Below, one piece after another: positions 26,546-30,284 of a stretch of DNA of 64,000 nt (the first letter of the stretch is position 1; each line of letters starts with the position of its first letter). The notes under the pieces were generated by a model. It worked only from the letters and a program-made list of their open reading frames with translations. It did not search any database and was not told the origin of the DNA. The position numbers were made by a program, and so were the translations under genes. Origin of the DNA: a virus; the IMG/VR virus record IMGVR_UViG_3300017938_000007, positions 1 to 64,000 of that record. One strand, 5' to 3'.

Positions 26546-26633
26546 GGCGGGTTGACCGAGCGCTAAGGTGCCAGTTCCGAAAACTGTGGCCTGCGTAACA
26601 GCAGCAGAGGTTGGATTCCTTTACCCGCCGCCA
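26546..26633 (+). tRNA. tRNA-Ser(CGA), C33
   Basis: Acceptor GGCGGGT/ACCCGCC with GCCA. Anticodon loop TCCGAAA, so C33 replaces U33. T loop TTGGATT (G56), D loop G18-C19. Variable arm present. Confidence 0.85.
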
Positions 26634-26638
26634 TTTTA

Positions 26639-26768
26639 ACGGGCCGAAGTGTTGTGGGTTATCTCAATGCTAATGAGGAGATACAGGTTCGAGTCCTGTT
26701 CCCGGCTCCAATGCCGGGATAGCTCAACGGTAGAGCGCTAAAAACATCCACGCCGATCCTTGCCCGTT
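26639..26768 (+). ncRNA. YrlA-like Y RNA with permuted tRNA-like module
   Basis: Outer helix ACGGG-(C)-CGA with TTG-CCCGT (bulged-C Ro60 site), then GGGTTATC. Inside: T arm ACAGG-TTCGAGT-CCTGT, acceptor 3' strand TCCCGGC (26700-26706), a TCCAAT loop, then acceptor 5' strand GCCGGGA (26713-26719), TA and D arm GCTCAACGGTAGAGC. The tRNA halves are in reverse order and joined across the acceptor end, as in bacterial YrlA RNAs. TTATATTT follows. Confidence 0.8.
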
Positions 26769-26774
26769 ATATTT

Positions 26775-26851
26775 CGTCACGTAGCTCAGCCCGGTAGAGC
26801 AGTCGGTCGATAACCGACAGGCCGTTGGATCGAAGCCAACCGTGACGACCA
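26775..26851 (+). tRNA. tRNA-Ile(GAT), C33
   Basis: Acceptor CGTCACG/CGTGACG with ACCA. Anticodon loop TCGATAA: C33. T loop ATCGAAG (A54). Confidence 0.88.
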
Positions 26852-26855
26852 CTTT

Positions 26856-26932
26856 GTCAAGGTAGCTCAGCCCGGTAGAGCAGAAGACTGAAAATCTTTG
26901 TGTCGGTGGATCGAAGCCACCCCTTGGCACCA
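26856..26932 (+). tRNA. tRNA-Phe(GAA), copy 1
   Basis: Acceptor GTCAAGG/CCTTGGC with ACCA. Anticodon loop CTGAAAA. T loop ATCGAAG (A54). A second Phe tRNA is at 36140. Confidence 0.9.
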
Positions 26933-26938
26933 TTTTAC

Positions 26939-27015
26939 GGCCCGGTAGTGTAGCTGGCTAACACGCTGCCCCTTCAAGGCAGAGATCATGGGATCGAAAC
27001 CCATCCGGGCTACCA
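26939..27015 (+). tRNA. tRNA-Glu(TTC), C33
   Basis: Acceptor GGCCCGG/CCGGGCT (G1-U72) with ACCA. Anticodon loop CCTTCAA: C33. T loop ATCGAAA (A54). Confidence 0.88.
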
Positions 27016-27019
27016 TTAT

Positions 27020-27098
27020 GGTCTGAAACCCAACGCAACTGCTTACGGGCACGAGCGACGGGCTAACACGCTGGAGTAAAACCAGCGTCAGGCCGCCA
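27020..27098 (+). ncRNA. CCA-ended tRNA-like RNA
   Basis: GGTCTGA/TCAGGCC (one G-U) with GCCA forms a convincing acceptor, but the inner arms are abnormal. The arm before the 3' strand is ACGCTGG/CCAGCGT with an AGTAAAA loop, and GGCTAACACG resembles a D arm out of place. No anticodon can be assigned. Confidence 0.5.
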
Positions 27099-27113
27099 TT
27101 TCGTAGTTAAGGC

Positions 27114-27356
27114 GTGCTGTACAGCTTCACGTTTTACAATTACCAGACCAAGGCCACGCAGTCGGTCACGGCCACGGATTGGGTCGATGCGTGGCGGCAG
27201 CTTGGTATACGCTTTGGCAGTCCGTTTTTACGCGGCACGTTCCAGCCATGGGGCCAGCCGGTGCTGGTTGGCCCGACCGGACAAGCTTCGCAGCCGAGCG
27301 AAGAACGTGCGCCCTTTGGTACCGGCCAGCCGGTCATATTCGGTACCAGCCGATGA
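27114..27356 (+). CDS. Small hypothetical protein (80 aa)
   Basis: GTG start preceded by GTAGTTAAGGC, the start-codon motif of the region. Begins MLYSFTFYNYQTKATQSVTATDWVDAWRQL and ends in a Pro/Gly-rich tail with KRVxI-free, low-charge composition. The N-terminal part looks like a small alpha-beta fold. No family recognised; position between a tRNA-like RNA and a Y RNA. Confidence 0.5.
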   Translation: MLYSFTFYNYQTKATQSVTATDWVDAWRQLGIRFGSPFLRGTFQPWGQPVLVGPTGQASQPSEERAPFGTGQPVIFGTSR

Positions 27357-27360
27357 TTTT

Positions 27361-27422
27361 ACGGGCCGAATTGATTGGGTTATCACTTGAAATGAACCAT
27401 CCCAGTCTGACACCTTGCCCGT
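27361..27422 (+). ncRNA. Minimal Y RNA (62 nt)
   Basis: ACGGG-(C)-CGA pairs with TTG-CCCGT and is followed by GGGTTATC. The remaining loop is short, with GGG/CCC pairing and no tRNA-like module. It is a compact version of the Y RNAs at 20226 and 35305. Confidence 0.7.
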
Positions 27423-27431
27423 ATTTAATTT

Positions 27432-27510
27432 GGCCCATTCGTCTACGTTTGGCTTAGGATGGCTGCTTCTCAAGCAGCAGAAACCGGATCGACACCGGTA
27501 TGGGCTGCCA
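27432..27510 (+). tRNA. tRNA-Glu(CTC)
   Basis: Acceptor GGCCCAT/ATGGGCT (G1-U72) with GCCA. Anticodon loop TTCTCAA (U33 kept). T loop ATCGACA (A54). Confidence 0.9.
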
Positions 27511-28819: not shown

Positions 28820-28844
28820 TGGAGAACATAATTTCTCCAATAAC

Positions 28845-28920
28845 GGCCAACGACCGAGCGGGTGAACGGAACGGTCTGCAAAACCGATTTAGCAGAGTTC
28901 GAGTCTCTGGTTGGTCTCCA
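28845..28920 (+). tRNA. tRNA-Cys(GCA)
   Basis: Acceptor GGCCAAC/GTTGGTC with TCCA. Anticodon loop CTGCAAA. Canonical T loop TTCGAGT. Confidence 0.9.
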
Positions 28921-28942
28921 ATTTGCTTTGGTAATTAAAGTA

Positions 28943-29299
28943 ATGAGTGACAGTGCTGAAAAAAACGCCCGCATCCAAGAAAATGCGCGCAACATCGTGG
29001 ATTTGCTGTTGGAATATGGACGCATTAAGCATCTTGAAATTCCGATCAAAATTCAGCATCCCGATGGTTCAGTCACTGACGGTGTCTTTACAGGTTATTA
29101 TCCGGCGGATATGAGCCTCACTGGCCAGCCCACGCCGTCCGTTGGTTATAAAACGGTGACCAAAGATTTTAGTCACGGTATGCTGAGAAATGGTGATCAA
29201 ATCATTGGTCATATCCCAAGTTTTATAGAATGGGAGCAATGGGTGGAACAACAGCAGCGTGAAGCTGCCGCCAAAAAGGCCAACGAAGGCCATCCATGA
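28943..29299 (+). CDS. Leader-bearing small protein (ARNIVDLLLE)
   Basis: 118 residues. After MSDSAEKNARIQE comes the leader NARNIVDLLLEYGRIKHLE, similar to that at 26085 including the YGRI continuation. The body contains a beta-rich KIQHPDGSVTDGVFTGYYPAD segment and a C-terminal charged helix (EWEQWVEQQQREAAAKKA). GTAATTAAAGTA directly precedes the ATG. Possibly a virion-packaged protein; function unknown. Confidence 0.55.
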   Translation: MSDSAEKNARIQENARNIVDLLLEYGRIKHLEIPIKIQHPDGSVTDGVFTGYYPADMSLTGQPTPSVGYKTVTKDFSHGMLRNGDQIIGHIPSFIEWEQWVEQQQREAAAKKANEGHP

Positions 29300-29311
29300 T
29301 CTTGAATTTTT

Positions 29312-29387
29312 GCGAACGTAGCTCAATTGGCAGAGCACCGCGCTTCCAACGCGGATGTTGCGGGATCGTTTCCCGTCGTTCGCTCCA
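29312..29387 (+). tRNA. tRNA-Gly(TCC)
   Basis: Acceptor GCGAACG/CGTTCGC with TCCA. Anticodon loop CTTCCAA. T loop ATCGTTT (A54/U58). Confidence 0.92.
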
Positions 29388-29391
29388 TTTT

Positions 29392-29467
29392 GCCTGTGTA
29401 GCTCAGTTGGTAGAGCGCGTCCTTGGTAAGGACGAGGTCACCGGATCATTCCCGGTCTCAGGCTCCA
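29392..29467 (+). tRNA. tRNA-Thr(GGT)
   Basis: Acceptor GCCTGTG/CTCAGGC (one T-T mismatch) with TCCA. Anticodon loop TTGGTAA. T loop ATCATTC (A54/U58). Confidence 0.88.
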
Positions 29468-29471
29468 TGTT

Positions 29472-30038
29472 ATGAATGCAAAGGCGTTAGTGAATCGACT
29501 GCTTGAGGTTGGGCCGGATGAACTGCCCGCCAAAGCGGAAGTGATGCGGCTGCCCGGTTGGCGGGACAAGATTAAGCGCGCCGAGGAATTTAAGTATCTC
29601 AGTGATCGTTGGGGTCAAGATTTGGAATCCGGCGAAGGTGTGCCGAAAATTCCCGGTGCATCCCGAAAAGTAAAAAATATCATTCAGCGTCTACAGCGGT
29701 GTATTGGTGGCTGGGAAAACAATTTCATCGTACAGCGGATAATGGACGGGCAGTATGGTGTTCTTTTTGAAGAAAAATTTCTTAATCCAGAGGGAAGCGA
29801 CGATGAACAGGCCATCCGCGACGCGTGGGAAGGCCCCGTGACGACGGAGGAAATTGAACGAGACCTTTGGCACAGAATGAGCGCGCTGGAAACTCGGTTT
29901 CCGCAAGCTGAATTTTCTATAACGGTTGGCCCGCATGTTTTTAATGGGCGCTATGCCGTACAGGCGTTTGTTCCGGCGAACAGAATCACGCCGGAACTTG
30001 GAGAGCAGTTAAGCGAAGCTTTTAGCGCTATAAATTGA
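29472..30038 (+). CDS. Leader-bearing protein (AKALVNRLLE)
   Basis: 188 residues starting five bases after tRNA-Thr. Leader MNAKALVNRLLEVGPDELPAK; the GPDE-x-PAK part also matches leaders at 31290 and 36322. The rest is helical and charged (EFKYLSDRWGQDLESG, KVKNIIQRLQRCIGGW) with a beta C-terminal segment (FSITVGPHVFNGRYAVQAF). The leader suggests packaging into the head and cleavage after LLE. Function unknown. Confidence 0.6.
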   Translation: MNAKALVNRLLEVGPDELPAKAEVMRLPGWRDKIKRAEEFKYLSDRWGQDLESGEGVPKIPGASRKVKNIIQRLQRCIGGWENNFIVQRIMDGQYGVLFEEKFLNPEGSDDEQAIRDAWEGPVTTEEIERDLWHRMSALETRFPQAEFSITVGPHVFNGRYAVQAFVPANRITPELGEQLSEAFSAIN

Positions 30039-30045
30039 TTTTTCA

Positions 30046-30121
30046 CGCTGTGTGGCGCAGTTGGTAGCGCAGTTCCCTCATAAGGAAAAGGTCGGCGGAT
30101 CGTACCCGCCCACAGCGACCA
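30046..30121 (+). tRNA. tRNA-Met(CAT), elongator
   Basis: Acceptor CGCTGTG/CACAGCG with ACCA; no C1-A72 mismatch, so not the initiator. Anticodon loop CTCATAA. T loop ATCGTAC (A54/U58). Confidence 0.85.
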
Positions 30122-30126
30122 TTTTT

Positions 30127-30202
30127 GCGTTGGTAGCTCAATTGGCAGAGCACCCGGCCCTTACCCGGAAGATTGTGGGATCGTTGCCCACCCAACGCAC
30201 CA
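30127..30202 (+). tRNA. tRNA-Lys(CTT), C33
   Basis: Acceptor GCGTTGG/CCAACGC with ACCA. Anticodon loop CCCTTAC: C33 and C38. T loop ATCGTTG (A54/U58). Confidence 0.88.
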
Positions 30203-30208
30203 ATTTAG

Positions 30209-30284
30209 GCCAGCATAGCTCAGTTGGTAGAGCGTCAGTTCTGTAAACTGAATGTCGGGGGATCGAAGCCCTCTGCTGGCTCCA
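30209..30284 (+). tRNA. tRNA-Thr(TGT), C33
   Basis: Acceptor GCCAGCA/TGCTGGC with TCCA. Anticodon loop TCTGTAA: C33. T loop ATCGAAG (A54). Confidence 0.9.

Follow-up and report, generated by a model that had tools for sequence, protein, structure and literature searches.

C33 in place of U33, and matched changes at the elbow, in the tRNAs of a bacterial virus

U33 and the G19-C56 pair are treated as near-universal among tRNAs because they are used by the anticodon turn, the ribosome, RNase P and modification enzymes. The elbow and U54 are likewise regarded as conserved in reviews. Natural tRNAs in which these letters are replaced would separate the letters that keep shape from those that keep recognition, and would offer direct material on whether phage tRNAs escape tRNA-targeting immunity. 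A related published case is that of van den Berg 2023 (PMC10264068), whose main text deals with the evasion of nucleases by phage tRNAs in general through changes in the anticodon loop. On the side of the nucleases, LshCas13a displays a preference for Lys-UUU, Glu-UUC, Gln-UUG and Thr-UGU (PMC11042736). In the open-licence literature, outside of which most subscription papers lie, we found no earlier report of C33 or of elbow covariation in phage tRNAs.

The stretch of DNA analysed here (the window; 64,000 nt) is part of a 108,009-base record of a bacterial virus; a search for a close cultured relative of this phage found none. Its tRNA region (16850..40787, + strand) contains ~42 tRNA genes representing all 20 amino acids, based on ARAGORN, an Rfam scan and a cloverleaf scanner that is blind to position 33, with the total obtained by hand as the ARAGORN list minus a false call plus the missed genes. 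ARAGORN returned 38 tRNAs, 1 of them false, and 1 tmRNA for the window, and overlooked Ser-CGA, Val-TAC, Glu-CTC and two Leu tRNAs; Val-TAC was absent from the Rfam scan listing as well. The false call, tRNA-Ser(gct) at 26643-26710, is not a tRNA but the tRNA-like module of a Y RNA of the YrlA type. The same region also holds a tmRNA and Y-RNA-like stems. A longer record, IMGVR_UViG_3300037993_001242 (199 kb), matches the window at 99.99%, with 1 mismatch in 21.7 kb and 0 in 10.7 kb of the tRNA region, and is probably the same virus population.

The original prediction had assigned C33 to six tRNAs, and the scanner recovered all of them with the same anticodon loops. Each lies on the + strand: tRNA-Ser(CGA) (26546..26633; loop TCCGAAA), which also has a swapped elbow, C19:G56; tRNA-Ile(GAT) (26775..26851; TCGATAA); tRNA-Glu(TTC) (26939..27015; CCTTCAA); tRNA-Val(TAC) (28175..28251; CCTACAC), which has the T-loop ACGTCAC with C19:G56 and G18:C55; tRNA-Lys(CTT) (30127..30202; CCCTTAC); and tRNA-Thr(TGT) (30209..30284; TCTGTAA). 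The Ile, Glu, Lys and Thr tRNAs carry A54, retain the G18:U55 and G19:C56 contacts that are altered in Ser and Val, and were found by both ARAGORN and the scanner. As the Ser and Val genes were found by the scanner and missed by ARAGORN, routine tallies of tRNAs in phages may under-represent variants of this kind. All six form cloverleaves with stems of 7, 5 and 5 bp, 7-nt anticodon and T loops, and an encoded CCA end, and all six have C33 in place of the U33 of bacterial-type elongator tRNAs. The acceptor, anticodon and T stems are perfect in Ile, Glu, Val and Thr, while the anticodon stems of Ser-CGA and Lys-CTT have one mismatched pair each (27-43). The six genes are real and very probably functional as phage tRNAs, their U33 having changed to C33 by transition. 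U33 itself had been called universal; near-universal is correct, since eukaryotic initiator tRNA carries C33 (PMC9023262).

C33 is rare yet recurrent across phages, and virtually absent from bacteria. Position 33 in 851 unique phage tRNAs was T in 791, C in 55 (6.5%), A in 5 and G in 0, in a viral sample of 226 loci (the window, genome parts, Ro60-gene relatives, loci sharing a D-arm motif and three cultured phages) that is non-random, one phage set having been picked by the D-arm motif and another by the Ro60 gene. Two cultured phages have C33 tRNAs: Alice, a Bixzunavirus, in the case of Val-CAC and Val-GAC, and CcrSC in that of Ile-GAT. Since ~6% of the sampled phage tRNAs, cultured phages included, possess C33, it is not peculiar to this window. 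The same motif and scanner applied to 119 bacterial loci gave C33 in 0/220 tRNAs, all of which had T33, in a control that is not isoacceptor-matched because it is rich in Arg and contains few Val (n = 8) and Glu (n = 6). A whole-genome search with a stricter D-arm motif, which offsets this mismatch but detects one D-arm type only, gave 0 C33 vs 344 T33 in 22 bacterial genomes (summed from the table), with ~16 of the U33 form per genome. Across 398 Pseudomonadota genomes it gave 2 C33 (L353 and L354), where ~6,200 T33 are expected by extrapolation from the same rate rather than by counting. With the strict motif, position 33 in viral loci was T in 163 tRNAs, C in 15, A in 4 and G in 2, and the ratio within the window was 3 C33 to 8 T33. 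The anticodon loops of the C33 tRNAs depart from the norm of bacteria generally.

C33 is unevenly distributed among isoacceptors (chi-square p = 4e-6, with related tRNAs counted as independent). It is more frequent in Val (12/47), Glu (8/41), Asn (4/30), Ile (5/40) and Lys (4/42), and low in Gln (0/46), Trp (0/21), Cys (0/20) and Leu (1/64). It is also concentrated in certain phages (permutation p < 1/3000, again counting related tRNAs as independent), and is associated with a pyrimidine at position 36 (46/516, compared to 9/330 for a purine; p = 3e-4, relatedness ignored). The absence of C33 from the bacterial control, the clustering and the isoacceptor bias are in favour of a non-random cause of C33. 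Relatives of the window phage allow individual tRNAs to be matched by position. L008, whose Ro60 is 56% identical, has the collinear run V-TAC, T-CGT, H, G-TCC, T-GGT, K-CTT, T-TGT, V-GAC, R-TCG. Val-TAC has C33 in the window and in the position-matched tRNAs of L008 and L028, while Lys-CTT and Thr-TGT have C33 in the window and T33 in L008; Thr-TGT of the distant phage L018 has C33. Position 33 therefore toggles between C and T among relatives, with Val-TAC as the stable case.

C33 belongs to a wider phage pattern in which positions 33, 54, 18:55 and 19:56 are rewritten and the elbow changes are matched. Within the window, the 19:56 pair is swapped in ten tRNAs. In addition to Ser(CGA) and Val(TAC), these are, all on the + strand, found by the scanner and having U33, the C19:G56 tRNAs Ala(CGC) (17898..17972), Arg(TCT) (24174..24250), Arg(CCT) (25904..25980), Ser(TGA) (25982..26069) and Met(CAT) (35126..35202), the U19:A56 tRNAs Arg(CCG) (27930..28006) and Arg(GCG) (28091..28167), and a second Met(CAT) with A19:U56 (40465..40540). 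Across the phage tRNAs, 19:56 is G:C in 769, A:U in 14, C:G in 7, U:A in 4 and C:C in 7, with 5 other mismatches; the seven C:C cases may be wrongly assigned loops. The 18:55 contact occurs as G:U or A:G, the latter mainly in L028, where it is found in most tRNAs, and in L008, although present in a dozen contigs. Taking the window with L008, L018 and L028, the two contacts change together through almost every type of pair. A joint pairing rule for 18:55 and 19:56 holds in 57/67 non-GG D-loops, a figure reached in 0/5000 permutations (mean 20.9, maximum 32), with the 18-19 offset of non-GG loops chosen freely in real and permuted data alike and related tRNAs counted as independent. A54 replaces T54 in 26 window tRNAs (16850-40787), mostly with U or A at 58, while in the bacterial control T54 is present in 220/220 and U55-C56 in 218/220. 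The elbow covariation is more surprising than C33, which alone is a modest variant.

The explanation that we put forward, with about even confidence, is a phage-wide loosening of fixed tRNA letters in which compensation keeps the fold and the costs of C33 are tolerated. Letters that are fixed in cellular tRNAs (33, 54, 18:55 and 19:56) would be relaxed phage-wide, compensation would preserve the fold, and the host readers of these letters, such as modification enzymes and nucleases, would no longer fully govern phage tRNAs. Support for relaxation comes from the nearly constant pyrimidine at position 33, the intact cloverleaves and the paired elbow changes. Changes at position 33 markedly degraded translation in a yeast study (PMC3664417), so C33 could be costly, and slower decoding by C33 tRNAs is plausible. 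We infer that an anticodon turn with C33 would still be good enough for decoding; its cost might be tolerated because phage tRNAs need serve just one infection cycle, and because the tRNAs that have C33 mainly carry a pyrimidine at position 36, chiefly C36 (Val, Glu).

The main rival to this loosening is selected evasion of host factors that read tRNA, since clustering by phage and isoacceptor bias could reflect selection rather than tolerance. Its special case, raised in the original prediction, is that C33 was selected because it would make phage tRNAs resistant to those anticodon nucleases of the host whose recognition or cleavage takes place near U33, a possibility that we hold only tentatively. 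Consistent with it are that same clustering and bias, the C33 Val tRNAs of Alice, the VapC-defeating anticodon-loop changes that the main text of PMC10264068 describes in Bixzunavirus (C1) tRNAs, and the presence of C33 among the Cas13a targets Glu-UUC, Lys-UUU and Thr-UGU (PMC11042736). Nevertheless, the Gln tRNAs lack C33 altogether even though Gln-UUG is also a Cas13a target, and the C33 isoacceptors match known nuclease targets only in part. Purines at position 33 would evade as well and yet are rare, the position-matched tRNAs of relatives lose C33, and a simple nuclease story leaves out 19:56, 18:55 and 54, which are also rewritten and lie far from the anticodon. A broader form, which we consider possible though doubtful, is a structure-preserving rewrite of 33, 54, 18:55 and 19:56 that would give a tRNA pool hidden from host factors and still accepted by ribosomes. 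Such a rewrite might, by an equally tentative reading, have explored every Watson-Crick form of 19:56 together with A18:G55, so that nucleases, modification enzymes and elbow-readers are evaded. The present evidence does not yet distinguish between relaxed constraint and selected evasion.

Other explanations fare worse. It is quite unlikely that C33 deliberately slows or retunes the decoding of particular codons: translation in yeast does fall when U33 is changed (PMC3664417), but the codons read by the six tRNAs are ordinary ones that the phage genes use, often commonly (GAA 39.8, AAG 33.1 and ATC 27.6 per thousand), and U33 isoacceptors for Glu, Lys, Thr, Val and Ser coexist in the same phage. 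Editing of C33 to yield U33 in the mature tRNA is very unlikely; a C and hardly ever a purine at position 33 is what C-to-U editing needs, but no PF00383 or PF14437 deaminase was found in the phage and its relatives, some of whose records are fragments, while most control genomes gave matches. Such editing would call for an enzyme from the host or one of an unfamiliar fold, or one encoded outside the sequenced fragments. Among tRNA repair proteins, a search for RtcB gave no match, and one for T4 RNA ligase gave none in the controls either. Decaying genes or artefacts (pseudogenes, assembly error, a wrong loop register) are very unlikely: despite the anticodon-stem mismatches in Ser and Lys and an irregular-looking gene nearby (22639-22711), stems and CCA ends are otherwise intact, C33 recurs in position-matched Val-TAC, no other register would restore both U33 and a paired stem throughout the set, and the six C33 bases are identical in the 199-kb contig, ruling out a local base error, so that the contig and the scanner together exclude sequencing error and misread loops.

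Several other features of this virus concern RNA. A Ro60 protein with TROVE and vWA domains (Pfam E about 1e-39) is encoded at 37282-39024 (+ strand), and six Y-RNA-like stems (GGGCC...GGTTATC) start at 20228, 26641, 27363, 28013, 35308 and 36642 on the same strand. These stems lie in among the tRNA genes, and two of them resemble YrlA and include a tRNA-like module, with scores below the Rfam cut-off. The tmRNA (35386-35811, + strand) has an unusually long predicted tag, ADEANDCPAGLLAQAEAIFANPDAVLNAELAVA. Elsewhere in the same virus are a tRNA with a CTA anticodon (L346 561-634, - strand) and an RF-1-domain protein in an open frame of 180 aa (G001:C1:168984-169298). TAG recoding, at which the CTA tRNA hints, was rejected, as opening TAG lengthens ORFs no more than opening TGA or TAA does; TAG terminates 30/226 long ORFs. 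The irregular tRNA-like gene at 22639-22711 (+ strand) has an anticodon loop of seemingly 6 bases, and a PD-(D/E)XK endonuclease (PF11645; 27500-27922, + strand) lies within the tRNA cluster. The predicted Ro60, Y-RNA-like stems, tmRNA, RF-1-domain protein and CTA tRNA make up a kit for translation and RNA handling that the phage keeps.

Viruses thus seem to alter letters of the tRNA that pass for fixed and yet retain the tRNA shape, and some known systems resemble the window tRNAs in part. The Bixzunavirus (cluster C1) phages such as Alice share with the window phage a tRNA-rich region, a tmRNA and a Ro60-like protein, and Alice likewise has a CTA tRNA, an RF-1-domain protein and some C33 tRNAs; it differs in that its parsable tRNAs have canonical GG/TC elbows and T54. 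The tRNAs of van den Berg 2023, like those of the window, carry anticodon-loop substitutions within a phage tRNA set, with position 33 unnamed in the main text searched (PMC10264068). Judged by that main text, the window tRNAs differ in that their changes reach the elbow and in that any nuclease resistance of theirs would be putative. Eukaryotic initiator tRNA-Met resembles the window tRNAs in having C33 and A54 (A54-A58) (PMC9023262, PMC7912444), whereas those of the window are mostly bacterial-type elongators. Finally, metazoan mitochondrial tRNAs have likewise lost conserved elbow letters (PMC7033119); there the letters are simply loosened, whereas in the window they are replaced in matched pairs.
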